A stretch of DNA of 64,000 nucleotides. Origin: Opitutaceae bacterium EW11 (GTDB lineage Bacteria; Verrucomicrobiota; Verrucomicrobiia; Opitutales; Opitutaceae). Positions 17,556-59,885 of the stretch are shown here, piece by piece (positions within the stretch are counted from its first letter, which is position 1; each line of letters starts with the position of its first letter). The position numbers were made by a program, and so were the translations under genes. The notes beneath the pieces are model-generated. The model was not told where the DNA came from and did no database searches. It saw only the letters and a list, made by a program, of their open reading frames with translations. The stretch covers positions 186,001 through 250,000 of the forward strand of contig QAYY01000015.1 in the NCBI GenBank assembly GCA_003054665.1, in the 5' to 3' direction.

Positions 17556-19250
17556 ATGGCGAGAATGAGCCCGCCAGTCACATTCGTTTTCTCCGTGTCC
17601 ACCCCCGAACCAGGTCCACCCGAGAGACCGTCCTCGTCTCCGTTTCCGATCGGCGCCACGACGCCGCCGTTCCCCGCTCCCACGGTCGAGCGCCTGCTTT
17701 TCGAGCGGCTGATGGAGAGCCTGCCGGACACCGTCTATTTCAAGGATCGGGAAGGCCGGTTCATCTGCGTGAACAACGCCCACGCCCAACACGTGGGAAT
17801 GAAGTCTCCCTCCCAGGTCATCGGGAAGACCGACTACGACTTTTTCGCCCACGATCTCGCGAAGGACAAAGATCACGATGAGCGCGAAATCGTGCGGTCG
17901 GGGATCGGCATCGAAAAGAAGGAGGAGAGTTCGAAGAGCATCAGCGGCTCCGACCAGTGGGTGCTCACGACCAAACTGCCCCTCTACGGTCCGGGCGGCG
18001 AAATCATCGGCACGTTCGGCATCTCGCGCGACATCACCGAGGCCACCCGTTCCCGGCGCTCGCTCGAGGAACAGCACGAACTGCTGCGCACTTTGATCGA
18101 GATCCTCCCCGCCCGAGTCTCCATCAAAGACCGGGAAGGCCGGTTCCGGCTGGTAAACGAGGCCTACCGTGAATCCTACGGCCTGCCGGTCGTCGAGGAG
18201 ATCAAGGGCAAGCTGCTGAGCGAGCTGGTCACGGATTCTCGCATCTCGCAGATCGCCGCCGACGATCGCAAGGTCCTCGAGGAAGGCGCCAGTTTCCTCA
18301 ACCGCGAGGAGCTCGAAATCTCCGCCAACGGCGGCAAGCGGTGGATTTTGCTTTCAAAAGTGCCGCTCCGCGGCGCCGACGGCACTGTCCAGGGGATCGT
18401 GGCGGTCGGCACAGACATCACTGCGCAAAAGGACGCCGAGGTGCGTGCGCTCGAGGCGCAGCACGCCCTGGAGGAGAAGAACCGGCAAATGGAGGCCGAG
18501 CTCGCGCTCGCGTGCGAGCTGCAGACCGAGCTGATGACGTCGAGCCTGCAGTCCGTCGCTGCGCAGCTGACGACCACCGCTCCGTTCTCGCCGCATTTCG
18601 CCTCGCTGTACGAGCCCTCCGCGCACCTGGCGGGCGACTTCTTCCACCTCACGCCGATGTCGCCCACGACTTTCGGGCTCATGCTCTGCGACGTGATGGG
18701 GCACGGACTCAAGGCCGCGCTCGTCACCACGCTGATCCGCGGTCTGCTGACCGACATGAAGGCCGACGCACTGGAGCCCGCGACCGCGCTCGAGCTGATG
18801 AACGAGCGGCTCTGCCCGCTGCTCGACCGTCCGGCTCTCCCGCGCTTCGTCACCGCACTTTTCGCCAAGGTGGACACGCAGTCCGGGAAAGTGGAGGTCT
18901 CGAGCGCCGGGCATCCATGGCCGCTCCACAAGACCGGTCCGGGGACCGCCGCGCAGATCTCTCTCGGACAGTGCGGCCCGGCTCTGGGGCTGATCCGCGG
19001 CGCGAACTACGGAAAGGTGGAGTTCACCGTGTCCAAGGGCAGCCAGCTTCTCTGTTTCACCGACGGTCTGATCGAGGAGACGAACCCGGCCGGCGAAGAG
19101 TATGGGATCCAGCGGCTCACCCAGTCCCTGGCCAAGTGCACCGAATCCGCGCCGTCGCGCGCGATCGCCCACCTCGCACTCGGTATCCGGGACTTCACGA
19201 CGAAATCCGCGCACAACGACGATCACTGCGCGTTGATGCTCGCGTTTTAG
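17556..19250 (+). CDS. PAS-PAS-SpoIIE (PP2C) serine phosphatase
   Basis: A 564-residue cytosolic protein without membrane helices. After a Pro-rich N-terminus, two PAS domains follow (about 48-170 and 178-300), each opening with an LPDTVYFKDREGRF-type strand and closing with an FGISRDIT/VAVGTDIT motif. A coiled coil (about 300-330) leads to an RsbU/SpoIIE PP2C domain (about 340-564). The domain has GDFFHLTP, LCDVMGHGLKAAL, CFTDGLIEE and the terminal HNDDHCAL, so the metal-binding Asp set is intact. It would dephosphorylate a STAS protein in response to an unknown signal. No partner gene is adjacent; the nearest STAS/RsbW genes are at 45950-49216. Confidence 0.88.
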   Translation: MARMSPPVTFVFSVSTPEPGPPERPSSSPFPIGATTPPFPAPTVERLLFERLMESLPDTVYFKDREGRFICVNNAHAQHVGMKSPSQVIGKTDYDFFAHDLAKDKDHDEREIVRSGIGIEKKEESSKSISGSDQWVLTTKLPLYGPGGEIIGTFGISRDITEATRSRRSLEEQHELLRTLIEILPARVSIKDREGRFRLVNEAYRESYGLPVVEEIKGKLLSELVTDSRISQIAADDRKVLEEGASFLNREELEISANGGKRWILLSKVPLRGADGTVQGIVAVGTDITAQKDAEVRALEAQHALEEKNRQMEAELALACELQTELMTSSLQSVAAQLTTTAPFSPHFASLYEPSAHLAGDFFHLTPMSPTTFGLMLCDVMGHGLKAALVTTLIRGLLTDMKADALEPATALELMNERLCPLLDRPALPRFVTALFAKVDTQSGKVEVSSAGHPWPLHKTGPGTAAQISLGQCGPALGLIRGANYGKVEFTVSKGSQLLCFTDGLIEETNPAGEEYGIQRLTQSLAKCTESAPSRAIAHLALGIRDFTTKSAHNDDHCALMLAF

Positions 19251-45949: not shown

Positions 45950-46273
45950 ATGAAGACCGAGATCTCACGCCAGCCCACGCACGTGCTCGTCGCGTGCGAG
46001 GGCCACATCGACGGCAAAACCGCGCCTGAACTCCAGGCGACGCTTGCGCCTCTTTTCGGAGAGGCGTCCGCCATCGTGCTCGACCTGTCGAAGGTCGACT
46101 ACATGTCGAGCGCCGGCCTGCGCGTGCTGCTCCTCGTCCACCGCCAGCTGGTCGCGAAAAAAGGCCGCACGGTGCTCGTGGGGCTGAGCGAAAGCCTGAC
46201 CGAGACGATGCGCATCACGGGTTTTCTGCAGTTCTTCGAAACCCAGCCCACGCTCGCCGCGGTGAAATTCTAG
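45950..46273 (+). CDS. STAS-domain anti-sigma factor antagonist (RsbV/SpoIIAA-like)
   Basis: A 107-residue single STAS domain. The phospho-acceptor loop is DYMSSAGLRVLL, with Ser54 as the likely site for an RsbW-type kinase. Unphosphorylated, it would bind the kinase and release its target. This is one of the few genes here with a Shine-Dalgarno-like GGAG (45942-45945), only 4 bases before ATG. It is 22 bases downstream of the AGE gene and 6 bases upstream of glgX. Confidence 0.87.
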   Translation: MKTEISRQPTHVLVACEGHIDGKTAPELQATLAPLFGEASAIVLDLSKVDYMSSAGLRVLLLVHRQLVAKKGRTVLVGLSESLTETMRITGFLQFFETQPTLAAVKF

Positions 46274-46279
46274 CGCGTC

Positions 46280-48400
46280 ATGGATACACGCATCGACGTC
46301 TACCCCACCCACGAGATCGCCGGCTACCCAGTCCGCGCCGGGCGCCCCCTGCCCTTCGGCGCGACGCTGGTGCCGGGCGGCGTGAATTTCTCGATCTTCT
46401 CGCGCCACGCGACGGCGTGTTCGCTCGTGTTGTTCGAGAAGGGCGCGACGGAGCCGCTCGCCGAGCTGCCGTTTCCCGCCGAATTCCGGATCGGCGACGT
46501 CTTCTGCATGATCGTGTTCGGGCTCGACGTGGAGGAGATCGAATACGGTTACCGCATGGACGGTCCGTTCGACCCGGCGCGAGGCCACCGTTTCGACAAG
46601 ACGAAGATCCTCTCCGACCCGCACGCCCGACTCCTCGCCGGGCGCAACGTCTGGGGCGCCGAGCCGGATTGGTCCGCGCCGTATCCGCATCGCGCCCGCA
46701 TCGCGTTCGACGACTTCGACTGGCAGGGCGACCGCTCTCCGGGCATTCCGCTCGAGGATCTCGTCATCTACGAACTGCACGTCCGCAGCTTCACCCAGCA
46801 TCCTTCGTCGGAGGTGAAGAACCGCGGCACCTACGCCGGCCTCGCGGAGAAGATTCCCTACCTGAAGGAACTCGGGGTGAACTGCGTGGAGTTGATGCCC
46901 ATCTTCGAGTTCGACGAGTTCGAGAACAGTCGCGTCAACCAGGAGACCGGCGAACGCCTCCTCAACTACTGGGGCTACAGCACGGTGGGTTTCTTCGCGC
47001 CGAAGGCCGGTTTCGCCGCGACCGGGCGCCTCGGGATGCAAATGGACGAACTCAAGACGCTCGTCCGCCAACTGCACGAGGCGGGCATCGAGGTGATGCT
47101 CGACGTCGTGTTCAACCACACTGCCGAGGGCAACGAAAACGGCCCGTACATCTCTTTCCGCGGCCTGGACAACCAGGCGTACTACATCCTCACGCCCGAG
47201 GGATATTACTACAATTTCAGCGGCTGCGGAAACACCCTCAACTGCAACAACCCGGTCGTCCGCGCCTTCGTCCTCGACTGCCTGCGGTACTGGGCGGCTG
47301 AATACCACATCGACGGCTTCCGCTTCGATCTCGCGTCCATCCTTGGCCGCGATCTTCAGGGCGCGCCGCTCGCCAACCCGCCTCTGCTGGAGAGCCTCGC
47401 CTACGATCCGATCCTTTCGAAGTGCAAGCTCGTCGCCGAGGCGTGGGACGCGGGCGGCCTCTACCAGGTGGGGTCGTTTCCGGCGTACGGGCGTTGGGCC
47501 GAGTGGAACGGACGGTTCCGGGACGACATCCGGAAATTCCTGAAGGGAGACACCGGACTCGCCGGCGCAGTGGCGACGCGCGTGCTCGGTTCGGCCGACC
47601 TCTACGGTTGGAACCAGCGGGGCCCGACCGCCTCGATCAATTTCGTCACCTGCCACGACGGCTTCACGCTTCACGATCTCGTCGCGTACAACGGCAAGCA
47701 CAACGAGGCGAACGGCGAGCAGAACCGCGACGGTTCCAACGACAACGAGAGCTGGAACTGCGGCTGGGAAGGAGAGAGCTCCGACGAGGGCGTGCTGACG
47801 CTGCGCCGCCGCCAGATGAAAAACGCGATCGCCATGCTCCTCGTTTCCAACGGTGTGCCGATGCTGTTGGCCGGCGACGAATTCGCCCGGACTCAGTACG
47901 GCAACAACAACAACTATTGCCACGACACGGAGCTCTCGTGGATCGACTGGAACCGGCAGAAGGCTTTCCCGGACTTGCACCGTTTTGTGCAGAAGATGAT
48001 CGCCTTCCGGCGCGCGCATCCGGTGCTGCGGCCGACCCGGCATCTGACAGGCGAGGTGTCCTCGGCCAGCGGGCTTCCCCAGGTATCGTTCCACGGCACC
48101 CGCGCGTGGCAGGCCGACTTCTCGCCCCAAAGCCGCGTGCTCGCTTACCTGCTTGACGGCGCCCAGGCGAAAGGCGGCACGGTACCGGACGCGACGCTCT
48201 ACATCGCGTTCAACATGTACTGGGAACCGCTCACGTTCGAACTGCCGTTTCCGCCGGCCACGACGCGCTGGCATGTGTTCGCCAACACCGGCTGCCCTTC
48301 GCCGGACGACATCTTCGCTCCCGGCGAAGAGCCGGAGCTTCCGCAGCAGGATGCCATTCTCGTCGGCGGTCGCTCGGTGCTCATCCTCGTGGCCCGCTGA
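46280..48400 (+). CDS. glgX: Glycogen debranching enzyme GlgX (isoamylase type)
   Basis: A 706-residue enzyme hydrolysing alpha-1,6 branches. Residues about 10-130 form the CBM48-like N-domain. The GH13 barrel has region I DVVFNHTAEG, region II GFRFDLASI (nucleophile Asp near 350), region III VAEAWDAGG (Glu near 387) and region IV TCHDGFTLHDL (Asp near 459). The remaining C-domain is intact. It lies between two STAS genes and reads in the same direction, so glycogen breakdown may be co-expressed with the signalling proteins. No other glycogen gene is in the window. Confidence 0.93.
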   Translation: MDTRIDVYPTHEIAGYPVRAGRPLPFGATLVPGGVNFSIFSRHATACSLVLFEKGATEPLAELPFPAEFRIGDVFCMIVFGLDVEEIEYGYRMDGPFDPARGHRFDKTKILSDPHARLLAGRNVWGAEPDWSAPYPHRARIAFDDFDWQGDRSPGIPLEDLVIYELHVRSFTQHPSSEVKNRGTYAGLAEKIPYLKELGVNCVELMPIFEFDEFENSRVNQETGERLLNYWGYSTVGFFAPKAGFAATGRLGMQMDELKTLVRQLHEAGIEVMLDVVFNHTAEGNENGPYISFRGLDNQAYYILTPEGYYYNFSGCGNTLNCNNPVVRAFVLDCLRYWAAEYHIDGFRFDLASILGRDLQGAPLANPPLLESLAYDPILSKCKLVAEAWDAGGLYQVGSFPAYGRWAEWNGRFRDDIRKFLKGDTGLAGAVATRVLGSADLYGWNQRGPTASINFVTCHDGFTLHDLVAYNGKHNEANGEQNRDGSNDNESWNCGWEGESSDEGVLTLRRRQMKNAIAMLLVSNGVPMLLAGDEFARTQYGNNNNYCHDTELSWIDWNRQKAFPDLHRFVQKMIAFRRAHPVLRPTRHLTGEVSSASGLPQVSFHGTRAWQADFSPQSRVLAYLLDGAQAKGGTVPDATLYIAFNMYWEPLTFELPFPPATTRWHVFANTGCPSPDDIFAPGEEPELPQQDAILVGGRSVLILVAR

Positions 48401-48440: not shown

Positions 48441-48776
48441 ATGGCTCTCACCAGTTCACTCGAAATCGGCAACAACGTTGCCAAGATCACCCTCGCCGGC
48501 CGGCTCGACGCCTCGACCGCCCAGCAGTTCCGTGACCTCGTCGACCAAGCTGCGGCGAAAAAGGTCAAAGCCGTCGCCCTCCTGCTCACGAACCTCGAAT
48601 ACATGGCCTCCGCAGGACTCCGCGTCATCGTCTTCGCCCGCCAAAAGATGGGCGCAGCGGTAAAGCTCTACGTCGTCGGCTCCCAGCCCGTCGTCCAGGA
48701 GACGATCGAGGTCAGCGGTTTCAGCCAGGCCGTGACGCTGATGCCGGCCTACGACGCGGCCACCATCGAAAAGTAG
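48441..48776 (+). CDS. STAS-domain anti-sigma factor antagonist (second copy)
   Basis: A 111-residue STAS domain with acceptor loop EYMASAGLRVIV and likely phosphosite Ser57. It is distinct from the copy at 45950: its start MALTSSLEIGNNVAKITLAG fits the RsbV family better. It lies 8 bases before the RsbW-type kinase gene, so it is the natural primary partner. Two antagonists and one kinase imply two inputs or branch points. Confidence 0.88.
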   Translation: MALTSSLEIGNNVAKITLAGRLDASTAQQFRDLVDQAAAKKVKAVALLLTNLEYMASAGLRVIVFARQKMGAAVKLYVVGSQPVVQETIEVSGFSQAVTLMPAYDAATIEK

Positions 48777-48784
48777 CCGCTGTC

Positions 48785-49216
48785 ATGGGCCCCGACCCGC
48801 TGGCCTTGCCCGGCACGCTCGACGCGCTCGATCCGCTCGCCGATTTCGTCCATGCCGCCGCCGCTGCCGCCGGCCTCGACAAGAAGGCCGCCGGCCGGCT
48901 CCACCTCGCCGTCGACGAGGTGGCGACCAACACCGTGACCCACGCGTACGGCGAACGCGGTCTCACGGGGCAACTCTACCTCAGCGCGGAAATCGCCCCG
49001 GACGTCCTCCGTATCCATCTGGAGGACACCGGACCGGCCTACGATCCGACCGCGACGCCTCCGCCCGCCGATCTGGACAAGCCCCTCGAGGAGCGGGGCG
49101 TCGGCGGCCTCGGCATCTTCCTCGCGCGGCGCAACGTCGACGCGTTCCTCTATGAACGCCGGGGCGACCGCAATCGCGTCACGTTCGTGGTCCGCCGGCC
49201 GGGCCGCCCGGGTTGA
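48785..49216 (+). CDS. Anti-sigma-factor-type serine kinase (RsbW/SpoIIAB-like HATPase)
   Basis: A 143-residue GHKL kinase. The N box is LHLAVDEVATNTVTHAYGE, the G1 box LEDTGPAYDP and the G2 box RGVGGLGIFLARR. It would phosphorylate the STAS protein(s) and otherwise bind a target. No sigma factor gene adjoins it, so the target may be distant or not a sigma factor. Its stop codon overlaps a possible TTG start of the next gene. Confidence 0.9.
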   Translation: MGPDPLALPGTLDALDPLADFVHAAAAAAGLDKKAAGRLHLAVDEVATNTVTHAYGERGLTGQLYLSAEIAPDVLRIHLEDTGPAYDPTATPPPADLDKPLEERGVGGLGIFLARRNVDAFLYERRGDRNRVTFVVRRPGRPG

Positions 49217-49233
49217 TTCGCGCCCCCGCATCG

Positions 49234-51204
49234 ATGGACAAGTCCGGCTCCCCTTGCCCCGCCCCCGCGCTGCGACGCGCCGAGTGGTGGGAGCGCGCCG
49301 ATCTCGGCTATGATTCCGACGGCCAGCTCAGATTCGCCGGCCGCCGGGTGCTCGACATGGCCGCGCACACCGGCACGCCGGCCTACGTCTACTCCGGCGA
49401 ACGGATCTCGGCCAACGTCGCACGCCTGCGGAGCGCCCTCGCCACGCTGAGCGATCCCGCGCCGCGGCTTCTCTACGCGATGAAGTCCAACCGCTTCGCG
49501 CCGGTGCTCGGCCACCTTCGCGGACTCGGAGTGGGTCTCGACGTCTGCTCCCCCGGAGAAGTGCGGCACGCGCTGGGCTGCGGTTTCCTCGAAACAGAAC
49601 TATCCTTTACCGCCGGCTCGCTCAGCGGGGCCGACTACGCCGCGCTAGCGGGCTGGCCGGGCGTCTGGGTCAACGCCGACTCGCTCTCCGCTCTGCGCCG
49701 CCTGGCGATCGTTTCGCCGGGGCGGCGCATCGGGCTTCGCATCAACCCCGCCGCCGGGCTCGGTTACGCCGCCAATCCGCTGGTCCGCTATTCGGGCGCG
49801 AAACCGACCAAATTCGGAGTTTATCTGGATCGCTTCGCCGAAGCCCTCGAACTCGCCGCCTCCCTCGGACTGAGGATCGAGGCGCTGCACTGCCACACGG
49901 GCTGCGGGTTCCTCACGCCGCAGCTGACCGCGCTCGACGAGGTTTTTTCGCGCGTCGAGGAATTCCTCCGACTCGCGCCTGGCGTCCGCCGACTCAACCT
50001 TGGCGGCGGACTCGGCATCCCGCTCACTTCCGCCGACGCTCCGCTCGATCTCGCCGCCTGGGCCGATCTTGTCCGCCGCCATTTCGCTTCCCGCGGCCTC
50101 TCGCTGGAATTCGAGCCGGGCGACTATCTGGTGAAAGATGCGGGCCTGCTGTTGACCGAAGTCACGCAGGTGGAGACCAAGGGCGGTCGCGTGTTCGTCG
50201 GGTTGAATGCCGGTTTCAACGTGCATCCCGAGCCCGCCTTCTACCGGCTGCCCCTCGCGCCCGCGCCGGCACAACTCCGCGAGGGTCCTGAGACCACGGT
50301 CACGCTGGCAGGCAATATCAACGAGGCGCTGGACCTCTGGGCCGAAGACATCCCGCTTCCGCCCGTGCAGGAAGGAGACGTGCTCTGCCTCCTCAATGCC
50401 GGCGGCTATGGCGCAGCGATGTCCAGCAGCCACTGCCTGCGCTCCGAGTTTTCCGAGCATTTCCTCACCGTGACTCCTCCCTTCGGCTCGATGCCGCCTT
50501 TGCCCGTGCCCAACAGCATCCTGCTCGACCAGGCCAATCAGCGTGCCTGGGACGAGCTCTACCGGTCCACGACCGAATACGTCTGGGGGCTCGCGCCGCT
50601 CCCGTTTGTGGCCGACTTCATGGAGGAGTTTCGCCGCGCCCTGCGTCCGCCCTCGCGGCTGCTCGACGCCGGCGCGGGCGAGGGCCGCAATCTCGGCGTT
50701 CTCCTTTCCTGCGGCGCCAGCGAGGTGCACGCCCTGGATTCGTCGCTGCACGCGCTGAACAAGATCCCGGCGGCCATCCGGGCCCAGGTGCAATGCCGGC
50801 ACGCCGACATGAGCGCGACGGGGTTTCCCGACGCGTTTTTCGACGGCGTCACGGTGCTCGACGCGATCGAGACCCTGCCCAACAGCACCGCCGTCCTCGC
50901 GGAGCTGCTGCGCATCCTCAAGCCGGGCGGCCTGCTGCTCTGCAATATCCCGGGCCCCGACGACGGTATCGCCGGGACGGATATGCAGGCGATCGGACCC
51001 AACGCCTTTCTCTACCGCCAGTCGTACTACTTCCGTTTCGTCGATCAGCACGAAGCCGAAGCCCTGCTCGTCCGCGCCGGATTCGAGGTCGTGCGCTCGT
51101 GCCGCTGCAACTGGCACGAGCAGGCCCACCCGGGCTTTCGCCGCGAACAACACGTCCACGCCAGCCAGATATTCCTCGTCCGGCGCCCCGCCAGCCCCAG
51201 CTGA
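49234..51204 (+). CDS. Fusion: PLP-dependent fold-III decarboxylase + SAM-dependent methyltransferase
   Basis: A 656-residue protein. Residues about 35-430 match the diaminopimelate/carboxynorspermidine decarboxylase family: PLP Lys84 (LLYAMKSNRF), HCHTGCG (219-225), GGGLGIP (257-263), EPGDYLV (294-300) and GGYGAAMSS. Two positions differ from the norm: EPGR has become EPGD, and the catalytic Cys-Glu-Ser motif has become NINEAL (361-366) with no Cys. Residues about 435-656 are a class I methyltransferase (LLDAGAGEGRNLG, then ADMSATGFPDAFFDGVTVLDAIE). I infer an amino-acid-like substrate that may be decarboxylated or racemised, with methyl transfer. ATG 49234 is preferred; TTG 49213 is also possible. 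Confidence 0.82.
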   Translation: MDKSGSPCPAPALRRAEWWERADLGYDSDGQLRFAGRRVLDMAAHTGTPAYVYSGERISANVARLRSALATLSDPAPRLLYAMKSNRFAPVLGHLRGLGVGLDVCSPGEVRHALGCGFLETELSFTAGSLSGADYAALAGWPGVWVNADSLSALRRLAIVSPGRRIGLRINPAAGLGYAANPLVRYSGAKPTKFGVYLDRFAEALELAASLGLRIEALHCHTGCGFLTPQLTALDEVFSRVEEFLRLAPGVRRLNLGGGLGIPLTSADAPLDLAAWADLVRRHFASRGLSLEFEPGDYLVKDAGLLLTEVTQVETKGGRVFVGLNAGFNVHPEPAFYRLPLAPAPAQLREGPETTVTLAGNINEALDLWAEDIPLPPVQEGDVLCLLNAGGYGAAMSSSHCLRSEFSEHFLTVTPPFGSMPPLPVPNSILLDQANQRAWDELYRSTTEYVWGLAPLPFVADFMEEFRRALRPPSRLLDAGAGEGRNLGVLLSCGASEVHALDSSLHALNKIPAAIRAQVQCRHADMSATGFPDAFFDGVTVLDAIETLPNSTAVLAELLRILKPGGLLLCNIPGPDDGIAGTDMQAIGPNAFLYRQSYYFRFVDQHEAEALLVRAGFEVVRSCRCNWHEQAHPGFRREQHVHASQIFLVRRPASPS

Positions 51205-51225
51205 CCCGGGCTTCTCCGCTCCCGA

Positions 51226-54200
51226 ATGACCGCCCGACTCCAGGCCCTCTTCCGCATTCTCCCCGACGAGGGCGGAAAACTCCTGTACCTCTCCGTCTTC
51301 GCCGGCCTGCTGCAGGCGGGAGTCGCGGTGGGCATGACGGCGGCCGACTCGCTTTTCCTGACGCACCTCGGGCCCGGCAAGCTGCCCGTCATCTATCTCT
51401 TCATGCCGGTGGTGACCGTGCTCTACGCCCCGGTCTATTCGTTCCTGCTGGCGCGCTTCGGCATGGATCGCCTCGTCTACCTGACGCTGGCGACCCTCGT
51501 CGCCGGCGGACTGGCTTTCGGAGCGATGGCCGGGCCGACACCGCCGGCCTGGCTGCTGTATTCGATGAAGTTCTACGTCGGGCTCTGGTTCATCGCGCTC
51601 TACACGCTCTTTTGGAACTTCGCCGACGACTACTTCAGCATTCTCGACAGCAAGCGCCTCTACGGGCTCATCGCCGCGGGCAGCGCCGCCGGCGCCTCCG
51701 CGGGCGCGGGCCTCGTCACCGCGATTTCCCACATCGTCGAGCCCGGCAGGTTGTTCCTCGTCTGGGCCGGTCTGGCCCTGGTGGCGGCGCCGGTTTTCGC
51801 CCGGCTGCGTGTCCGCTATCCGCGGGTCGAATCCGACACGCCTTCCGAGAGCGAGCCGCCCGCGCGGCAGCTCGGCTTCGCTCTCCAGACCTTTCGCAGC
51901 TCGCGTTTCGCCCTCGGACTTTCCGCGGCCTGTTTCTGCTCCGTCGCCCTCGCCGCCGGACTCGAGTACCTCTCGATGAGCGTTTTCTCCGAGGGAAAAT
52001 CGCCCGCCGATCTGGCGGCGCTCCTGGGCCGGCTTTTCGCCGCGGCCAACATTCTCACCCTGATCGCAAACCTTTTCGTCTACAACCGGCTCGTCTCGCG
52101 TATCGGTGTCGGCAATACCGCTCTCGTGCTTCCGCTGGCGTTCCTCGCCGCGTTCGCCGCCTTCTATCTCCAGCAGGGGTTCGTCGCCGCGTTCCTGGCC
52201 TTCTACGCGTATCAAAGCCTGCTGGCCTCGATCGAATACAACAACGTCAACGTCCTGTTCAACGCCCTGCCTTCTGCCGCCAAGCGGCCGCTGCGGACTT
52301 TCATCGAGGCGTTGAGCGAACCGCTCGCCACCGCCGCGGCCGGCGGCTTCCTCTTGCTCTGGGCCGGATCGCTCGGCGTGCCGCACCTGGCGCTCGCCGG
52401 CATTCTCTTCGCCACCGGTGCGCTCGCCGTGGCGCTGATCCTGAGGCACGACTACGCGGGAGCGCTGGCCGAAAACCTTCGCCGCGACTGGCTCGATTTC
52501 GCCGCTCCGATCGAGGAATGGCGCAACCAGTTGACGGAGCAGGACCGGGAGCTGCTTCGGGAAAAGGCCGTTCACAGCTCCGACCGCGGCGAGCGGATCG
52601 CCGCCGCCGATCTCCTCGTTTTCTCAGGCGATCCGTCCGCCAGCGACGCCGTGACGCGGCTCCTCGAGACGGCGCGCTCGGTGGAGGCGGAGCGACTCCG
52701 CCCCACGCTCAACCGGATTCTCCGCAGTTCGGATGCCGCGACTGTCGCCGCCCTTCTCCTCTGGCTCGAAAGCGACGCCAGCCCGGAGGATCCCGAGCTG
52801 CTCGACGAGTTTGCCGCCGCCGGCGCTCTGCCCGTGCGCCAGATCCTCGCGTGGTCGCGCTCGCAGCACCCCGCCCGTATCGCCATGTCGGCCACGGCCC
52901 GCTGGCACGGCCCGCGCCTGGACGAGGCCGAAAGCGCGTTGCACGACGTGCGCCTGCTCCTGGCCGGTGACCGGTCTAGCCGGCGCTGGGGCGTGCGCGC
53001 CATCGGCGGCCTCCGCCAGCCGCAGCACGCCCGCGAGCTTCTGCGGTTCCTCGACGAACCCGACGCCGAACTCCGGCTCGAGGCGCTCCGCGCGCTGCAC
53101 AAGCTGGCCAGCCCCGAGATCGAAGCCGTGACCGGACGCATCGTGCCGATGCTGGCGGACGCCAGCCCCGATGAGCGGCAGCTGATCCTGGGCACCCTCG
53201 AGGCGATCGGCGCCGTCGGTGCCGTGCCGGATCTCCTCCGCGCGGCGGGAGGCTTTTCCTCCGCCGAGAATCGGCGGCTGGAAAGCCTGCTCTTCGCCTT
53301 GGGGCCGCGTGCGACGGCCACCATCATCCACGCCCTTCGCGATCCGGGAACGTCCTGCCGGGCCCGCATCGTCGCCGCCCGCGCCCTTCGGCGCATCGCC
53401 CCCGCCCAGCTCGAGCTGATCGCCCAGGATCTCATGACGACGCAGCTCCGCCGGTCGTGGGATGCCGCCGGCGCGGCCCGGGGGCTCGGTGACGGAGCCG
53501 CCGCGGACATGACGGACGGCGTCGCCGTGCTCGTGCGGCTCTATCGCGACACCGCCGCGGAGGGTATCGACTTCGCCGTGCAGCTGCTCGGCCTCACCGG
53601 ACGCCTGCCCGACGTCGACTTGATCCAGGCGTCGCTTGCCTTCGCGCACACCAAAGACCGGGCGAACGCGATCGAAACCGTCGAACAGAGCTGCCCTCAC
53701 GGTCTCTTCGGGCAAATCCAGCCGCTGCTCGAACTCGACGGCGAATCCGGAGCGACCGTCTTTCCCGTCCTTTCGCGCGAAACGATCCTTCGCCGCGCGT
53801 CGAGCAGCGAGGACTCCCTCGAATGCGCGGCGGCGCTGCTCGCTCTCGGCGAACTCAAGGCGCCGCAGGCGCGCGATCTCACGCTGCGTCGGATCGACCG
53901 CACCGAACCCGCGAAGGTGACCGCCTCCCTCGCCGCACTTCTGCCCTATTTCGAACCCAAGCTGGCAAGTGACGAAACGCGCCGGCTCCATCCGGTTCAG
54001 CGCGTGGCCGCGCTCGTCCGCGCCGGATATTTTGCCGACGCCCGCATCACCGCCCTCGAATACCTCGCCACCCGCGGCGAGGAGATCCACGCGCCGCCCG
54101 GCGCGACGCTGTATTCGCCCGACCTTCCAACGGGAAATCTCCTGATCGTGGCCGAGGGCACCGTCGACTTGATTCGCGGCGGCGCAACGCGGACGCTCAC

Positions 54201-54378
54201 GCGCGGCGCCACCTGCAACGAGCGGGCGCTGATGGGCACGCTCGTGCGCGACGAGCGGGTGGTTTCCCGCGGCGCCGTGGTGCTCGCCATCCCGAGCGCG
54301 ATCGTGACGCGTGCGATCGAGATTTTCCCGGCGCTGGGGATCAGCCTCTACAAGACGAAGATAGTCTCTTCCGGATGA
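51226..54378 (+). CDS. Nucleotide-transporter-like (Npt/NTT) membrane domain + HEAT repeats + cyclic-nucleotide-binding fold
   Basis: A 1050-residue protein. Residues 1-405 have 10-12 membrane helices resembling ATP/ADP translocase-type (NTT) proteins of intracellular bacteria and their free-living relatives. Residues about 420-900 are helical HEAT-like repeats (RRWGVRAIGGLRQPQHARELL, LRLEALRALHKLASPEI). Residues about 925-1050 resemble a Crp/cNMP-binding barrel (PPGATLYSPDLPTGNLLIVAEGTVDLI) without the Arg of a true cAMP site. Its stop overlaps the next start (ATGA). Whether it transports nucleotides is unknown; it could be a membrane-anchored sensor. Confidence 0.75.
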   Translation: MTARLQALFRILPDEGGKLLYLSVFAGLLQAGVAVGMTAADSLFLTHLGPGKLPVIYLFMPVVTVLYAPVYSFLLARFGMDRLVYLTLATLVAGGLAFGAMAGPTPPAWLLYSMKFYVGLWFIALYTLFWNFADDYFSILDSKRLYGLIAAGSAAGASAGAGLVTAISHIVEPGRLFLVWAGLALVAAPVFARLRVRYPRVESDTPSESEPPARQLGFALQTFRSSRFALGLSAACFCSVALAAGLEYLSMSVFSEGKSPADLAALLGRLFAAANILTLIANLFVYNRLVSRIGVGNTALVLPLAFLAAFAAFYLQQGFVAAFLAFYAYQSLLASIEYNNVNVLFNALPSAAKRPLRTFIEALSEPLATAAAGGFLLLWAGSLGVPHLALAGILFATGALAVALILRHDYAGALAENLRRDWLDFAAPIEEWRNQLTEQDRELLREKAVHSSDRGERIAAADLLVFSGDPSASDAVTRLLETARSVEAERLRPTLNRILRSSDAATVAALLLWLESDASPEDPELLDEFAAAGALPVRQILAWSRSQHPARIAMSATARWHGPRLDEAESALHDVRLLLAGDRSSRRWGVRAIGGLRQPQHARELLRFLDEPDAELRLEALRALHKLASPEIEAVTGRIVPMLADASPDERQLILGTLEAIGAVGAVPDLLRAAGGFSSAENRRLESLLFALGPRATATIIHALRDPGTSCRARIVAARALRRIAPAQLELIAQDLMTTQLRRSWDAAGAARGLGDGAAADMTDGVAVLVRLYRDTAAEGIDFAVQLLGLTGRLPDVDLIQASLAFAHTKDRANAIETVEQSCPHGLFGQIQPLLELDGESGATVFPVLSRETILRRASSSEDSLECAAALLALGELKAPQARDLTLRRIDRTEPAKVTASLAALLPYFEPKLASDETRRLHPVQRVAALVRAGYFADARITALEYLATRGEEIHAPPGATLYSPDLPTGNLLIVAEGTVDLIRGGATRTLTRGATCNERALMGTLVRDERVVSRGAVVLAIPSAIVTRAIEIFPALGISLYKTKIVSSG

Positions 54379-55721
54379 AACCGCGCTTTACGTTCCAGAC
54401 GCTGATTCTCGCGGCGCTCGCGCCCGTGCTGGTCGCGTTCGCCGCGTTCTGGGCGTGGCACATCTACCGCTCGACGCACCGGATCATCCTCGACGGATTC
54501 GACCGCAAGCTGCTCGCCGTCGCCGGGGGTGCGGCGGCGCTGATCGACGGCGACGAACATGCGCGTTACCAGCGGGGGGCGCAGCCCCCGGGCACGGAGC
54601 CGGCGCCCGGCGCGACTCCGTCGGTGGAATCGTTCAATCTCGACGATCCGTTCTACCGGGCCAACCGCGCCGCATTCTCCCGGATCCAGTCGGAAACGGG
54701 CCTCAGTTACCTCTACACCCAGGTCTACGTCGGAGACCGCAAGATCTACTACGTCCTGGATGGCACCGTGTCGGACCGGTATTCGGTTCCCGGATCGGTC
54801 GACGAACTTCCCGTGCAGTCCGTCGACGCAGCCGAGCGGGTGCAGGGAATCGGACGGAGTTCGATCACCCCGATCATCCAGTGGCAGGTCTGGGGACTGA
54901 TCAAATCGGGCTTCACCCCGATCAGAGACTCCAAGGGTCGGGTCGTTGCGATCGCCGGAGCCGACGTCGACATCGGCATCATCCGCCAGAAGACCCGCTG
55001 GGCGTTGTTCGCGTCCATCCTCATCGGCGTCGGCTCCCTCCTCGCCGCCGGCTATCTCTCCTATCGGGTAACGCGCTCGCTCACCCGTCCCCTGCGCCAG
55101 CTCAAGGATTCGGCCCTTTGGATCGCCGCCGGCTACTACGGAGCGCGTATTCAACTCGCCGGCACACGCGAGGTTGTCGCCCTCGCCGGCACGCTCGACG
55201 CCCTCCGCGACCGGCTCGACCGCGAGGAAACGCGTTCGAGAACCTGGCAGGAACAGCTCCGGGGCCAGAGGCAGGGTTCGACGCTGGCCAAGGCGCTGGG
55301 CGAAGTCGCGTTGCGCCACGGCGCCGCGGAAAACGCCGAGGGCGCCGAGGGCGTCTGCCGGTGCACGGATGCCTCGGTGTGGTGGTTTGGCCAATCCGGC
55401 GAGAAAGCGCTGCCTGCCGCCTGCCAGCGGGCGCGGCTCACCGTTCTCGTGCGTTCGACGCTGAACGTCGGCGCGCCGCCGGAGCATCTGCTCGCCGTCC
55501 TTTTGTCGGCGCATCCCGGGTTGAGCGGTTGTGCCTGCTGGCACCGCGCGTCGCGGACGCTCCACTACCGTCTTCAGGCTCCGCGGATCCTTCGCGTCGG
55601 CGTGGCCACACACCGGCTTTCCGGCGCCGGCGCGCTTTCGATTCCGAACCCTGACAATCTCCGTTGGGCGGAAGCTCCGGCCGGGGCCGAGCCTCATGAA
55701 ACCGGGAGGACCGCGTCATGA
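54375..55721 (+). CDS. Membrane sensor with HAMP and degenerate SpoIIE domain (pseudophosphatase)
   Basis: A 448-residue protein. TM1 is at about 9-30, the extracytoplasmic sensor domain at about 31-205 (ETGLSYLYTQVYV, VAIAGADVDIGI), TM2 at about 209-230 and HAMP at about 231-290. The cytoplasmic C-part (about 300-448) parallels the phosphatase at 57477: WWFGQSGEKALPAACQRARLT aligns with FCIGDVSDKGMPAALFMAAAL. The Asp of GDVSDKG has become Gln, and the GGDFYD and terminal DD motifs are absent. It is thus probably catalytically dead. ATG 54375 overlaps the previous stop by ATGA. Confidence 0.75.
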   Translation: MKPRFTFQTLILAALAPVLVAFAAFWAWHIYRSTHRIILDGFDRKLLAVAGGAAALIDGDEHARYQRGAQPPGTEPAPGATPSVESFNLDDPFYRANRAAFSRIQSETGLSYLYTQVYVGDRKIYYVLDGTVSDRYSVPGSVDELPVQSVDAAERVQGIGRSSITPIIQWQVWGLIKSGFTPIRDSKGRVVAIAGADVDIGIIRQKTRWALFASILIGVGSLLAAGYLSYRVTRSLTRPLRQLKDSALWIAAGYYGARIQLAGTREVVALAGTLDALRDRLDREETRSRTWQEQLRGQRQGSTLAKALGEVALRHGAAENAEGAEGVCRCTDASVWWFGQSGEKALPAACQRARLTVLVRSTLNVGAPPEHLLAVLLSAHPGLSGCACWHRASRTLHYRLQAPRILRVGVATHRLSGAGALSIPNPDNLRWAEAPAGAEPHETGRTAS

Positions 55722-56128
55722 CTCTGGCCGAAAAAATCTTCGCGCTTCGCGCCGTCTTTCCGTTTTCGCAGCTGCGTCCGGAGGAGCTGCTCATCGTGGC
55801 GACGGGCGCGATGCTCCGCGAGCTTCCTCCCGGGCGGGTCCTGGTGAGAAAAGGCAGTCCGCTCAATCACCTCTACATCCGTGTCGCGGGCGATCTCGTC
55901 ACGGAATCCGGAACGGCCGTGCACCCGGTGCTCGGCACGACGGTTCTTCTCACCGGATGCGAGGCGCCGTACACCGTCACAGCCGGACCTTCGGGCTACC
56001 GAGGCCTCTGTCTGCCGCGAGGCAAGTTCCTCACCGTGGTGAACGAGTGCCCCGCGTTGCTCGTGGGCTTCTTCCAGATGCCGATCATCAACCCCGCCGA
56101 GCCGCCGAAGCCGGTCTCCGCGCCATGA
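55718..56128 (+). CDS. Small cyclic-nucleotide-binding-fold protein
   Basis: A 136-residue soluble protein of the Crp/cNMP-binding barrel type. A helix FPFSQLRPEELLIVATGAM leads to the barrel PPGRVLVRKGSPLNHLYIRVAGDLV. The phosphate-binding cassette is not conserved (APYTVTAG where RSATVTA is usual), so cAMP or cGMP binding is doubtful. It lacks a DNA-binding domain. Its start and stop both overlap the adjacent sensor genes by ATGA, which argues for a fixed ratio with them. It may be an adaptor or ligand domain for the sensors. Confidence 0.72.
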   Translation: MTLAEKIFALRAVFPFSQLRPEELLIVATGAMLRELPPGRVLVRKGSPLNHLYIRVAGDLVTESGTAVHPVLGTTVLLTGCEAPYTVTAGPSGYRGLCLPRGKFLTVVNECPALLVGFFQMPIINPAEPPKPVSAP

Positions 56129-57480
56129 CCTTCCGGCTCCGCTTCCATCTGGCGATCCTGCCCCTTTTCCTCGGCTTCACCGCGGCCGCCCTCGGGCTGC
56201 ATTACGCGCTGCATCGGCGAGAGCTCGACTGGGGCCTCGCCCAGCAGAGCGAAGGTCGCGCCGTCACCCTGGCGTCGTTTCTCGCCCAGTCTCCCGGAAA
56301 CGGCCTCCCGCCCGGCCCGGAATCGTGGACGGCTCAGGCAAACCGGCTGGCCCGGTCCGCCGGCGGCCTCGCCGTCACCTGGTTCGAACGCGAGGGCTCC
56401 GGCTGGCGCACGCGCCAGGTCGTAACGGATCCGTCACTACATTCACCCGCGTTGCCCGATGCCGGCATCCTCGCCCAGCTGGAAACGGGCGCACCGGCGT
56501 GGCGCCACGTCCCGTTGCCAAACGGCGAATTCGACGAATCCCAGGCCTACGCCCTGGTCCTCGACACCGATCGCAGCGCGCGAGCCGTGCTCGGGGTGAC
56601 GGAACGGGATCGCGTCACCCGGGCGGAACTGCACTGGGTCCTCCGCACAGGCGCCTGGGCGCTGGCTGCCGCCTTCGTCGCGAGCCTGATCGTCGCCGAA
56701 CTGCTCACCGCCATCGCGCGTCGCGACCTCGCCGCGATTTCGGAAGGCGCCCGGGCCCTCGCCCGCGGCGCGGCCGGACACAGTTGGAAACCGAGCGTGG
56801 TCTCGGAGTTCGCCGACCTTTCCCGCACGCTGCAGTCGATCGACCGGATTCTGCTCGAGGGAGGCCAGCAGACCCTCCGGCGTTTTTTCCGCGCGGAGCA
56901 GCTTCCCAGCGAAGACGAAACCGCAGTCGCCTTCGAGGAAGCCTGCGCGGCCGCGCCCCTCACTGCCGCGGATGCGCCAGCGTGTGTTGTCCGCCGACTC
57001 GGCCACGGCCACGACGACTTCAGTTTGGTTCAAAAAACCGCGGCCGGTTGGGCGCTGGGAACCGCAAGGCTCCAGCCGCCGCCGGACACCGAGAGCGCCC
57101 TTGATCGAAGCGTTCGCGCCGCTGCGGCGCGCGACCTCCTGTCCGGCCTGCTGGCGTCGCACTCTCCCGAGGAAGCGTGGCAACGGCTAGCGGCGGTGTA
57201 TCCCCTGGCTCGCGGCTGCCTCGTGATCCTAACCCCAACCGGTGAGGCTCCCGTTTGTCACACCTTCGGTCCCGACGGCGCCGGTGTCGTGCAACCCCAG
57301 CCGGGCGCGCAGTACGGCATCGTCTCCACCCTCGCCCCGGCATCGCTCCAGACCGCACGGGAGTTCGCCCAATACTCGTTCAACTGGCCGCTCGACCGCG
57401 CCGCGGACGAACTGGTGGCGCTCCTCGCCGAGCGCGACCGCGGACTGCTCTTGCTCTTTCACCCCTTCAAAGCGCCATGA
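56125..57480 (+). CDS. Membrane sensor with HAMP and highly degenerate SpoIIE-like domain
   Basis: A 451-residue protein: TM1 at about 8-28, extracytoplasmic domain at about 29-172, TM2 at about 174-197, HAMP at about 198-245. The C-part (about 260-451) follows the order of the phosphatase at 57477: RAAAARDLLSGLLASHSPEE parallels its AAALTTLRARATADLRDTPEE. It ends RGLLLLFHPF where the active form has DDITMLAVRF. None of the metal-binding Asp residues remains. Sensor region and catalytic region are both more diverged than in the protein at 54375. ATG 56125 overlaps the preceding stop. Confidence 0.68.
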   Translation: MTFRLRFHLAILPLFLGFTAAALGLHYALHRRELDWGLAQQSEGRAVTLASFLAQSPGNGLPPGPESWTAQANRLARSAGGLAVTWFEREGSGWRTRQVVTDPSLHSPALPDAGILAQLETGAPAWRHVPLPNGEFDESQAYALVLDTDRSARAVLGVTERDRVTRAELHWVLRTGAWALAAAFVASLIVAELLTAIARRDLAAISEGARALARGAAGHSWKPSVVSEFADLSRTLQSIDRILLEGGQQTLRRFFRAEQLPSEDETAVAFEEACAAAPLTAADAPACVVRRLGHGHDDFSLVQKTAAGWALGTARLQPPPDTESALDRSVRAAAARDLLSGLLASHSPEEAWQRLAAVYPLARGCLVILTPTGEAPVCHTFGPDGAGVVQPQPGAQYGIVSTLAPASLQTAREFAQYSFNWPLDRAADELVALLAERDRGLLLLFHPFKAP

Positions 57481-59111
57481 AAACCGCCGCCGACACCCCT
57501 GCCCCATCCCCGACGCCCCGCGTCCGCTACGGCCTGCGTTTCAAGGTCCTGCTTGGACTCACCGCGTTCAACATCGCCGCGACGCTGCTGTTCTCCGTCA
57601 AACACTACCTGACCGAACGCGAGCAGATCATGGGCACGTTGCGGGACAACCTGGCCGACTTCGCCGCCGGGTTCGCGGATCTGCTTCCGCCCGATTACCT
57701 CGACCGGGCCACCAAGCAGGGGTCGATCTCCCCCGAAGAGTATCAGAAAGTCTGCGACAAACTCACCGCCTACTGCTCCAAGGTCGGTCTGCGTTTCCTC
57801 TATAGCTACGCCCTGGAACCCGAAGGCTTTCACTGCACCGCGACCAACCAGCCCCCCAACGAGCGCTATGTGCCGTACTGGGACTTCTATGGCTCCGCGC
57901 CGCTGGAGATCTTCCAGGCTTCCGCCACGGGCAAGCCGGTCACCGCGATCGTGCACGACGAGTGGGGCCGAACCTTCACCTTGTTCGCGCCGATGAAGAC
58001 GCCGGGCGGCGTCAAGTACATCGCCGGGGCCGACCTTCCCATCGCCTACGTCGACGCGATCCTGAGGAAGTCGTTTCTCCAGTCGCTCTACGTGGGCGTC
58101 GGCAGCTTTGTCCTGTTTTTCGTCATCAGCGCCTACGCCAGCACGCGGTTCTCCCGCAGGATCACGCACCTCGCCGCCTACACCCACGAACTCGCCGCCT
58201 CCAACTTCAAACCGGATGCCGAGTCGCCCCTTCGGCGCGAGGTCGCCGCGATTCCCGAGAAGACCAAGGACGAGGTCGGCGAGCTGGCGCGAAGTTTCCT
58301 CCTGATGGAAGACCGGCTGGGCACGTACATCCGGCAGCTGAAGGAGGAAACCGCGGCCAAGGAACGCGCGCAAAACGAGCTGCGGATCGCCGGCGAGATC
58401 CAGGTCAGCATGCTTCCCCACGGTTTTCCCGAGACGCGGGGCGTCGATCTCCACGCCGCGATGAAGCCCGCGAAGGAGGCCGGCGGCGATTTCTACGATT
58501 ATTTCTTCCTCGATCCCGATCATCTCTGTTTCTGCATCGGCGACGTTTCCGACAAGGGCATGCCCGCCGCCCTTTTCATGGCCGCCGCGCTGACCACCCT
58601 GCGGGCCCGCGCGACCGCCGATCTGCGCGACACGCCGGAGGAGATTCTCCGCCAGACCAACGAGCTGCTGATTCCTCAAAACCAGTCCTGCCAGTTCGTC
58701 ACGCTCTTCCTCGCCGTCCTCAACGTGAAGACAGGCCTCCTCACGTATTCGGATGGCGGACACAATCGCCCGTACCATCGCGCCCGGTCCGGCAACGCCA
58801 AGATGCTCGTGATCCCGCCGCGGGAAGGCATCGCGCTGGGAGTGATGCCCGGCGCCGTCTTCAAACGCCACACCCTCCAGCTCGAACCGGGCGAAACGTT
58901 TTTCCTCTACACCGACGGGGTCACCGAAGCCGTGGCGGCGGACGAATCGTTCTATCGCGAACCGCGCCTGGAAAAGACGCTCAACGGGCTCTCGCCAGAC
59001 CTCGCGGTCTCCGGCTGGGTCGAGGCGGTGATGAAGGACGTCTTCGCCTTCTCGGAAGGCCACGTCCAAGCCGACGATATCACCATGCTCGCGGTCCGTT
59101 TCACCTCCTGA
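57477..59111 (+). CDS. Membrane sensor with HAMP and active SpoIIE/RsbU PP2C phosphatase
   Basis: A 544-residue protein: TM1 at about 21-42, sensor domain at 43-200 (VGLRFLYSYALE, KYIAGADLPIAYV), TM2 at 203-222, HAMP at about 222-285, coiled linker and phosphatase at about 300-544. The metal-binding Asp set is complete: D338 (AGGDFYDY), D356 (GDVSDKGMPAALFM), D480 (LYTDGVTE) and D533-D534 (DDITMLAV). It would dephosphorylate one of the STAS proteins in response to a ligand outside the cytoplasm. It is the last of the four ATGA-linked genes. The methyltransferase starts 3 bases after its stop. Confidence 0.92.
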   Translation: MKTAADTPAPSPTPRVRYGLRFKVLLGLTAFNIAATLLFSVKHYLTEREQIMGTLRDNLADFAAGFADLLPPDYLDRATKQGSISPEEYQKVCDKLTAYCSKVGLRFLYSYALEPEGFHCTATNQPPNERYVPYWDFYGSAPLEIFQASATGKPVTAIVHDEWGRTFTLFAPMKTPGGVKYIAGADLPIAYVDAILRKSFLQSLYVGVGSFVLFFVISAYASTRFSRRITHLAAYTHELAASNFKPDAESPLRREVAAIPEKTKDEVGELARSFLLMEDRLGTYIRQLKEETAAKERAQNELRIAGEIQVSMLPHGFPETRGVDLHAAMKPAKEAGGDFYDYFFLDPDHLCFCIGDVSDKGMPAALFMAAALTTLRARATADLRDTPEEILRQTNELLIPQNQSCQFVTLFLAVLNVKTGLLTYSDGGHNRPYHRARSGNAKMLVIPPREGIALGVMPGAVFKRHTLQLEPGETFFLYTDGVTEAVAADESFYREPRLEKTLNGLSPDLAVSGWVEAVMKDVFAFSEGHVQADDITMLAVRFTS

Positions 59112-59114
59112 TCC

Positions 59115-59885
59115 ATGTCCGACTCCACGACGCCCCTGCCGATTTCCGCCTCGGAGGACGAACTGCTCGTCGCCGCCGCTCAGGGAGACGAGCGATTGCT
59201 CGAACGGCTCCGGTCGCGCGTCCGCTCCGGGGAGCCCGCGCCGTACGTCGCCGGTTTCATCGAGTTTCGCGGCCGCAGGTTCCACATCGATCCACGCGCC
59301 TACATCACCGACCCTGAAGTCACGCACCTGATCGACGTCGTCGGCGAGGAGGGCGACGCGCTCGAACGCGAGTTCGGCCGATCCCTGCGGGTCCTCGAAT
59401 TCGGAACCGGCGCGGCCACCCTCGCTGTTTCGCTCAAGCTGGAGCACCCGCGCTGGACCGTGGCGGGCTTGGACGTCGACCGGGACGCCCTTGCGCTCGC
59501 GTCGGAAAACGTCAGCGCGCACAGCGCCATGGTGGAGCTCATCGAGAGCGATTTCTTCTCCTCCTGGCCCGCCGACCGCCCCCAGCCCGACCTGATCTTC
59601 GGCGACCCGCCGTGGGGTTCCGCGGAGGACCTCTACAACCCGTCGCGCGATGCCGAATACTACCGCCAAATGCCGCCGAGGTCGGCGTTCCCCTCCGGCG
59701 GCCGCACGGGCATGCACGACGCCGTGGTGCGGCACATCCAGGAACGAGGATGGACGTCCCTGTTGGTCTTCAACTATGGAGTGCTCCCCCGCGGTCTTGT
59801 CGAGGCATCGGCCTCGCGGCTGAAGCGCTGGCAGATCCGCTCTCCCGGGCCGCAGGTCTCCATCGTCGTCGGTCGGGCTTGTTAG
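59115..59885 (+). CDS. PrmC/HemK-like SAM-dependent methyltransferase with altered catalytic motif
   Basis: A 256-residue protein. The N-terminal GEPAPYVAGFIEFRGRRFHI follows PrmC, but the usual IPRPETE reads ITDPEVT. The SAM motif is VLEFGTGAATLAVSLK. The catalytic NPPY of glutamine and N6-adenine methyltransferases is GDPPWG here, so an adenine- or other amino-methyl substrate is possible. It is not the housekeeping PrmC, as prfA is absent. The start is 3 bases after the phosphatase stop. It may modify a protein or a product made by the cluster. Confidence 0.72.
   Translation: MSDSTTPLPISASEDELLVAAAQGDERLLERLRSRVRSGEPAPYVAGFIEFRGRRFHIDPRAYITDPEVTHLIDVVGEEGDALEREFGRSLRVLEFGTGAATLAVSLKLEHPRWTVAGLDVDRDALALASENVSAHSAMVELIESDFFSSWPADRPQPDLIFGDPPWGSAEDLYNPSRDAEYYRQMPPRSAFPSGGRTGMHDAVVRHIQERGWTSLLVFNYGVLPRGLVEASASRLKRWQIRSPGPQVSIVVGRAC

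Follow-up and report, generated by a model that had tools for sequence, protein, structure and literature searches.

Gene content of the locus

The window analyzed here is a 64,000-nucleotide stretch of the genome of Opitutaceae bacterium EW11 (contig QAYY01000015.1, positions 186,001 to 250,000), and all coordinates given without a system name are those of the window. It encodes two membrane receptors, A and B, with apparently degenerate PP2C-like C-terminal domains (C-domains), a third receptor, C, with a SpoIIE/PP2C phosphatase domain, and a small protein with a degenerate cyclic-nucleotide-binding domain (cNBD), termed cNMP (Table 1). A preliminary description of this DNA had presented A, B, and C as three tandem sensors, two of them pseudophosphatases. 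Its coordinates for the three genes were exact, and all three frames are open. The genes do lie close together, but they are not strictly tandem, because the 136-amino-acid (aa) cNMP gene separates A and B; this gene and the link to a transporter-like protein (NTT) are additions to that description. The genes form one plus-strand run (48441-59885) in the order STAS-HATPase-decarboxylase/methyltransferase-NTT-A-cNMP-B-C-MT2, with successive spacings of +8, -4, +21, -4, -4, -4, -4, and +3 bp; the 4-bp overlaps include the NTT/A, A/cNMP, cNMP/B, and B/C junctions.

Table 1. Genes of the run from STAS to MT2 (PLP, pyridoxal phosphate; SAM, S-adenosylmethionine)
Feature	Coordinates	Strand	Remarks
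STAS anti-anti-sigma-like protein	48441-48776	+	TIGR00377, E value 1.7e-21, above cutoff
RsbW/SpoIIAB-like HATPase, putative STAS kinase	48785-49216	+	PF13581, E value 4.4e-23
Diaminopimelate-decarboxylase-like PLP enzyme fused to SAM methyltransferase	49213-51204	+	PF02784, PF00278, PF08241
NTT, NTT/MFS-like membrane protein with HEAT repeats and degenerate cNBD	51226-54378	+	PF07690, PF13646, PF00027, PF03219, all below cutoff
A	54375-55721	+	448 aa, open frame
cNMP, degenerate cNBD protein	55718-56128	+	136 aa; PF00027 below cutoff
B	56125-57480	+	451 aa, open frame
C, SpoIIE/PP2C phosphatase	57477-59111	+	544 aa, open frame; PF07228
MT2, SAM methyltransferase	59115-59885	+	PF05175

A common layout of transmembrane (TM) segment, sensor, TM segment, HAMP domain, and C-domain had also been proposed. 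Two TM segments were found by hydrophobicity in each receptor (A, residues 9-27 and 210-228; B, residues 5-23 and 172-190; C, residues 23-41 and 199-217), but a HAMP match above the Pfam cutoff of 25 bits occurred only in A (27.2 bits). C scored slightly below the cutoff (23.7 bits), and window B had no Pfam HAMP match, while a scan of 11 B-family members gave such matches in 4. A thus consists of TM, single-Cache/PAS-type sensor, TM, HAMP, and a degenerate C-domain (about residues 320-434); B of TM, sensor, TM, HAMP-like helices, and a pseudo-PP2C domain (about residues 281-449); and C of TM, sensor, TM, HAMP, and a SpoIIE/PP2C phosphatase domain.

The phosphatase domain of C matched SpoIIE (PF07228) with an E value of 2e-43 and 149 bits (cutoff, 25), and its metal residues D338, D356, D480, D533, and D534 were exactly as first described; among the three receptors, only C is a SpoIIE/PP2C protein with the metal Asp residues. 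The NCBIfam SiaA equivalog model scored C at 53.3 bits (E value, 1.7e-14), under its cutoff of 700, and matched the TM2-HAMP region of A (3.8e-7), again far below the cutoff. The run holds genes for a STAS protein, a HATPase, and a SpoIIE protein and is thus complete in partner-switch gene content. In an alignment to 1th8_B, Ser57 of STAS falls on the first Ser after the Asp of SpoIIAA, which we take to be the phosphorylated Ser.

NTT has matches to every domain of an NTT-HEAT-cNBD protein, each scoring below its cutoff (TLC, 16 of 21; HEAT_2, 24.3 of 27.7; cNMP, 19.3 of 27.5). The separate cNMP protein scored 17.3 bits with PF00027 (cutoff, 27.5), and no typical phosphate-binding cassette is apparent by eye in the alignment of its family.

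Predicted fold of the C-domains and loss of the metal residues

AlphaFold2 models of A and B were built from 11-row alignments. In the model of B (mean predicted local distance difference test [pLDDT] score, 80.6), the C-domain is a predicted PP2C fold. Its top structural match in VIA was SiaA-PP2C (6k4e; Z 13.9, 192 aligned residues, 3.7 Å), with further matches to Rv1364c RsbU (3ke6; Z 13.3, 173 aligned residues, 3.2 Å), RssB (Z 12.2), RsbX (Z 11.0), and SpoIIE (Z 10.5); 47 of the best 50 rows covered this domain. Foldseek returned 3ke6_B with an E value of 1.5e-3, and the sensor of B (residues 34-164) resembled CitA (Z 10.2). The modeled C-domain comprises strands 298-316, helices 325-345 and 348-358, strands 361-401, and then two helices and a strand.

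By sequence, blastp found no similarity of B to A or to C, and no SpoIIE Pfam match was obtained at an E value of ≤1 in any of 11 B members (window B had none in Pfam or NCBIfam). Comparison by hhalign aligned the B-family C-domains with 37 SpoIIE domains in the expected register (14 rows, score of 34.9, 103 columns; 17 rows, score of 39.9, 102 columns), and the best of 150 column-shuffled B profiles scored 18.4. Three of the 22 control segments taken from NTT, the decarboxylase/methyltransferase, MT2, A, and C contain parts of the PP2C domain of C; the best of the other 19 reached 21.4 over 14 columns. When 28 single C-domains were searched by hmmsearch against a local SpoIIE profile, most stayed at shuffle level, and only two, the B proteins of loci L045 and L051 described below, outscored every one of 200 shuffles. 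Because the B subfamily profiles scored low when used alone, we base the fold of B mainly on the model. The structure prediction that had been proposed as a check of B against SpoIIE/RsbU therefore returned a PP2C fold, and with its metal residues gone, B stands as a pseudophosphatase.

For A (mean pLDDT, 82.1), fold searches placed the sensor with DctB (3e4o; Z 13.2, 2.5 Å) and CitA (1p0z; Z 13.0, 2.6 Å); a second DctB structure, 3by9, scored Z 13.7 but at 10.1 Å. The rows were filled by the sensor and left the C-domain uncovered, so the missing PP2C rows carry no weight. In the model this domain has strands at 326-329 and 333-338, helices at 345-365 and 369-379, and further strands at 385-431, in that order, repeating the element order and helix lengths (21 and 11 residues) of B, with the last two helices and strand of B missing. 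As had been noted, the GDVSDKG of C is replaced by GQSGEKA in A, and the proposed relatedness of A and C was borne out by blastp (E value of 3e-10 in a single comparison, A residues 164-373), in an alignment that extends through the GDVSDKG region.

An alternative is that A ends in some other small alpha/beta output or adaptor domain and that only B is a pseudophosphatase. Besides the uninformative fold search, the hhalign scores of A against SpoIIE are consistent with this, being weak and unstable (9.7 to 29.0, over differing regions); because scores and regions shift with the rows used, we do not rest the fold of A on them. There was also no SpoIIE Pfam match at an E value of ≤1 among 11 A members, and none for window A in Pfam or NCBIfam. 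However, the blastp alignment to C, the element order shared with B, and the 14-row A profile, which beat all 150 column shuffles (23.4 versus at most 15.3), argue against a different domain, and we consider that alternative unlikely. The C-domain of A is probably a truncated pseudo-PP2C domain; longer A C-domains occur in G763 and G789. From the loss of the metal set, the element order, and the similarity to C, the earlier assignment of A as a pseudophosphatase is probably correct.

The full Asp set was retained in none of 17 A and none of 17 B C-domains from two phyla. Most of four motif expressions matched the C proteins. None matched in 14 A domains or in 3 more, and in 14 B domains there were three matches to the loosest expression (L047, L049, and L051), all out of register, with none in 3 more. 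Since these expressions are strict (only 22, 24, 36, and 15 of 37 SpoIIE domains match them), the aligned columns were read as well. In the SpoIIE domains, the D338, D356, and D480 columns hold Asp in 37/37 cases and the D533 and D534 columns in 36/37. The B domains never have Asp at D356 (0/14) and always have a gap at D480 (14/14); D or E occurs at D338 in 4/14 (D in the window), and single Asp residues are scattered at D533/D534. In the A domains, whose alignment is uncertain, Asp was found at D338 in 0/14, at D356 in 1/14 (L046), and at D480 in 3/14. Judged from these motifs and alignments, the active PP2C metal set is absent from both A and B.

The preliminary description had allowed that homologues keeping the Asp set would indicate local decay. 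On that explanation, A and B would be copies of C on their way to being lost from this genome. The poor conservation of the C-domains and the shortness of that of A in the window would fit such decay, as would a ratio of nonsynonymous to synonymous substitution rates (dN/dS) of 0.91 (dS, 0.82) for the A C-domain between two Lysobacterales loci, L044 and L046. This explanation is nevertheless contradicted, because the same loss occurs in every A and B C-domain examined and no homologue carries the Asp set. The frames are open and the 4-bp overlaps are preserved, and in the closest pair of systems (L048 and G026) the C-domains of both A and B are constrained, with dN/dS values of 0.28 at identities of 0.78 and 0.77; the B C-domain of L044 versus L046 gave 0.42. 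We therefore regard local decay as extremely improbable. Across ten loci, identity to the window was 16 to 25% in the C-domain and 29 to 48% in the sensor of A and 13 to 29% and 19 to 38%, respectively, in B. The C-domains of A and B are kept yet fast-evolving, that of A being loosely constrained in Lysobacterales.

Conservation of the gene set and natural fusions

A scan of genomes with an NTT alignment gave 11 loci, ten of which reach A: three in Lysobacterales, five in Verrucomicrobiota (four of them in Opitutaceae or Opitutae), one in Niveispirillum irakense, and one in a Rhizorhabdus metagenome-assembled genome. L050 was excluded because its contig ends within the NTT gene. Further systems were G026, G038, G083, G106, G253, G763, and G789, all but G106 discovered via A or B, making 18 distinct systems with the window; G023 (identical to L054) and G109 (identical to L053) were counted once, and the stretches in G019 and G113 were excluded as partial matches only. 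All 18 (Verrucomicrobiota, Lysobacterales, and Alphaproteobacteria) contain A, cNMP, and B together. This count includes G253, with its cNMP joined to A and a shortened B; G106, where a contig end cuts A; G026, where A lies on two contigs; and L051, whose B had no blastp match and was recognized by position, overlap, layout, and alignment. In 10/10 loci of the NTT scan, both A/cNMP and cNMP/B offer a start codon with a 4-bp overlap of the preceding stop. NTT lies directly upstream of A in the 17 systems where the contig reaches it; ten of these were located with NTT itself as the query, but six were reached through A or B.

C adjoins the set in 10/18 systems (window, L044, L045, L046, L049, L051, L052, G253, G763, and G789; cut by a contig end in L049), lying downstream of B on the same strand in 8 of them and divergently upstream of NTT in L051 and L052. 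Within the sequence examined, it does not adjoin in the other 8 (L047, L048, L053, L054, G026, G038, G083, and G106). At an E value of ≤1e-10, whole-genome searches of G023, G026, G038, G083, G106 (a 72% complete genome), and G109 gave no match to the sensor of C, the matches to C being confined to PP2C domains of other SpoIIE proteins; among 8 genomes searched whole, only G000 and G253 had a full-length match. Among 14 NTT proteins placed in a tree, those from systems lacking C form an Opitutaceae clade (5 rows; support, 89/94), apart from the weakly placed G038. C is present in three other branches, as well as in G763 and G789, which are outside the tree. C looks ancestral and subsequently lost, although this is our inference.

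These counts bear on a second explanation, in which A and B act mainly on C as HAMP/PP2C heterodimers that inhibit or activate the live phosphatase. A and C are paralogues, C lies next to the set in over half of the systems, the shortened B of G253 directly precedes C, and linker-mediated dimerization of PPM domains is the known switch of RsbU. But A, cNMP, and B persist in the 8 systems where C does not adjoin, and six of the genomes searched whole contain nothing that reaches the sensor of C. Because C adjoins in only 10/18, its regulation is not the sole job of A and B, and the earlier suggestion that they act by inhibiting, activating, or pairing with C is not supported as a general statement. 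We consider heterodimerization as their main function rather unlikely.

Profile scans recovered the set incompletely. The B profile matched 64 of 372 genomes of the order, mostly around TM2-HAMP and in some cases also over the sensor, with near-whole matches in four (G000, G026, G083, and G109), while G038 and G253 were recognized by synteny. The A profile matched 37 of 387 genomes of the phylum, with long matches in G000, G026, G038, G083, G763, and G789. Both scans were draws scoring few candidates per genome. They undercount, since the set-bearing G023 and G106 were unmatched in either, and we claim no frequency.

Two natural fusions were found. In Niveispirillum irakense DSM 11586, B runs on into an RsbW-like HATPase (PF13581, 2.4e-20; 1 of 11 B members) and is followed by a STAS gene; what we take to be the N, G1, and G2 boxes of the HATPase look intact by eye. 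In G253, the sensor-TM-HAMP part of A (residues 1-316, 40% identical to window A) continues into cNMP (residues 324-432; blastp E value, 1e-15), which takes the place of the dead domain. B is cut to 170 aa in that genome and matches only residues 1-33 and 178-259 of window B (the first TM segment and TM2-HAMP-linker), and C follows directly, with a 17-bp overlap if the ATG at rc 9248 is the start. By the usual logic of gene fusions, A would hold cNMP and B would hold the kinase.

The Niveispirillum arrangement also puts B at a partner switch, and B keeps a predicted PP2C fold without the metal set; both would suit a substrate trap, in which phosphorylated STAS is caught by the dead domains of A and/or B and thereby shielded or sequestered, but not hydrolyzed. 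The C-domain is, however, the least conserved part of A, and in B it is overall slightly less conserved than the other parts, unlike what would be predicted for a conserved STAS interface. Most systems also have no STAS gene in the flanks examined, and we hold a substrate trap to be very unlikely.

A proposed sensor complex and its relation to known systems

The gene order, its conservation, the predicted fold of B, the loss of metal residues, and the two fusions are results of this analysis, and we infer a physical complex, a docking role of the dead domains, a C activity with a STAS substrate, and coupling at the HAMP level. As proposed, the NTT/HEAT/cNBD protein would be the center of a membrane sensor complex to which A, cNMP, and B belong as constant subunits. 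A and B would be receptors of C-like layout whose PP2C domains lost catalysis long ago, the dead domain of A now serving as a docking surface for cNMP and that of B as one for the kinase or STAS side of the partner switch. C, where present, would be the sole phosphatase. It would counter the HATPase kinase by dephosphorylating the STAS protein of the same run (at Ser57), and its activity would depend, via shared HAMP/linker coiled coils, on the state of A, B, and the transporter-like protein. We prefer a docking role, with C as a losable output, because A and B persist without C. This is our best reading, and we give it about even odds: the dead domains would serve for docking rather than as enzymes, within a sensor complex that is linked to the transporter-like protein and, in systems with C, gates a SpoIIE partner switch.

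RsbU is activated when its linker coiled coil dimerizes the phosphatase domains, and AlphaFold2 models suggest the same linker-driven dimerization for a HAMP-PPM protein (PMC12143880). The models of A and B retain HAMP and linker helices, which may allow them to pair with C or with one another.

Several results weigh against the docking reading. The C-domain of A is a weak point, both in its low identity to homologues and in its shifting hhalign scores, and its dN/dS of 0.91 in L044 versus L046 indicates little constraint there. The three B subfamily profiles, used alone, scored only 13.0, 18.1, and 25.9, and each fusion is known from a single genome. STAS/HATPase genes lie near only 4/18 systems in the flanks examined (window; L046, STAS only; L051; and L052). 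In L051, L053, and G253 the NTT match stops before the C-terminal cNBD and yet cNMP is retained; the parts are therefore not lost in step.

A broader form of the docking reading can be put forward tentatively, and we doubt it somewhat more than we credit it. The locus would then encode a membrane signaling complex that is new to the literature and moves horizontally. Two receptors with anciently dead phosphatase domains, together with the degenerate cNMP protein, would read the NTT/HEAT transporter-like protein. The dead domains would serve as docking platforms that can be exchanged, and the live output, be it a SpoIIE phosphatase, a class III cyclase, or nothing, would be an accessory open to replacement or loss.

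SiaABCD of Pseudomonas aeruginosa comprises one PP2C sensor, a kinase, a STAS protein, and a diguanylate cyclase. C shares the membrane sensor-HAMP-PP2C layout of SiaA, whose PP2C domain was the top structural match of the B C-domain; we know of no dead paralogues, NTT/HEAT protein, or cNBD protein in SiaABCD. As in RsbU/SpoIIE-RsbW-RsbV partner switching, STAS, HATPase, and SpoIIE genes share one run in the window, but here two dead receptors accompany the live one. Rv1364c, with RsbU and RsbW domains in one protein, is paralleled by the Niveispirillum B fused to an RsbW-like HATPase; unlike in Rv1364c/RsbU switches, the PP2C domain beside the kinase is without metal residues.

To our knowledge, PP2C pseudophosphatases are known mainly from eukaryotes. 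One of them, PHLPP2, is an animal protein from an unrelated context and is not known to have a membrane receptor layout. Its likeness to A and B is that of a PP2C-family protein without activity, the loss in metazoan PHLPP2 being ancient (PMC12002173). A survey of bacterial PP2C proteins (PMC12088040) does not contain the terms "pseudophosphatase," "inactive," "lacking," "degenerate," or "metal-binding," and among the matches listed from the open-license PMC literature we found neither a bacterial pseudo-PP2C protein in a partner switch nor a paper on this gene set. Major et al. (2017, PMC5381601) described NTT-HEAT proteins whose cNBD is either encoded by a separate gene that follows or joined to the same protein; the latter have the domain chain that NTT appears to have. 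The part of that paper covered here mentions no A- or B-type receptors and no SpoIIE neighbor; the order in our systems is NTT-A-cNMP-B-(C). NTT-HEAT-cNBD proteins and NTT-HEAT with a cNBD gene are thus already in print; the receptor set was not found among the open-access matches listed.

The gene set would represent two PP2C pseudophosphatases kept in bacterial receptors (Verrucomicrobiota and Proteobacteria) in a fixed association with a transporter-like protein. The C-less lineages and the domain-swapping fusions make the purpose of a dead phosphatase domain directly testable, and the uncharacterized NTT-HEAT-cNBD proteins gain candidate partners.

Several further features were noted. The NTT of the window is nearest to the Lysobacterales proteins of L044, L045, and L046 (48 to 50% identity, versus about 35 to 37% for Opitutaceae relatives), which suggests, from sequence comparison, horizontal transfer. 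A homologues of L044-L048, L053, L054, and L039 have an extra repeat region of about 200 to 250 residues between TM1 and Cache that is absent from window A (DUF6923 in 5/11 and SdiA-regulated in 2/11 members). The cNMP protein of G038 (L039, 12167-13069) has 300 aa, with an extra N-terminal part that looks GAF-like by eye. A class III cyclase with seven TM segments follows B in L054 (16975-18408), and apparent broken pieces of class III adenylate/guanylate cyclases were seen by eye in G026 (L040 from about 2700, frame-broken) and L048 (about 17063-17200); in G038, B is followed by what by eye is a PotD-like gene.

Elsewhere in the window, outside the A-B-C run, a second STAS-like protein (45950-46273, 107 aa, MSSAGL motif by eye) is directly followed by a glycogen-debranching-like gene (46280-48400, by eye). 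A further SpoIIE domain lies at 18666-19244 (147.7 bits; open frame, 17439-19247), and the genome has five PF07228 matches. PADLOC returned two weak methyltransferase matches to mad2 and nothing else. By synteny, the PLP decarboxylase/methyltransferase gene accompanies NTT across loci, and MT2 recurs in the neighborhood of the set. Nonribosomal peptide synthetase/polyketide synthase-type genes lie near the set in four loci (L047, 17111-23114; L048, 18441-23080; L049, 6251-7865; and L053, 16181-22251), with condensation, AMP-binding, ketoreductase (KR), ketoacyl synthase, carrier protein, phosphopantetheinyl transferase, and class-III aminotransferase content. With the recurrent PLP decarboxylase and methyltransferases, these genes hint at a natural product.

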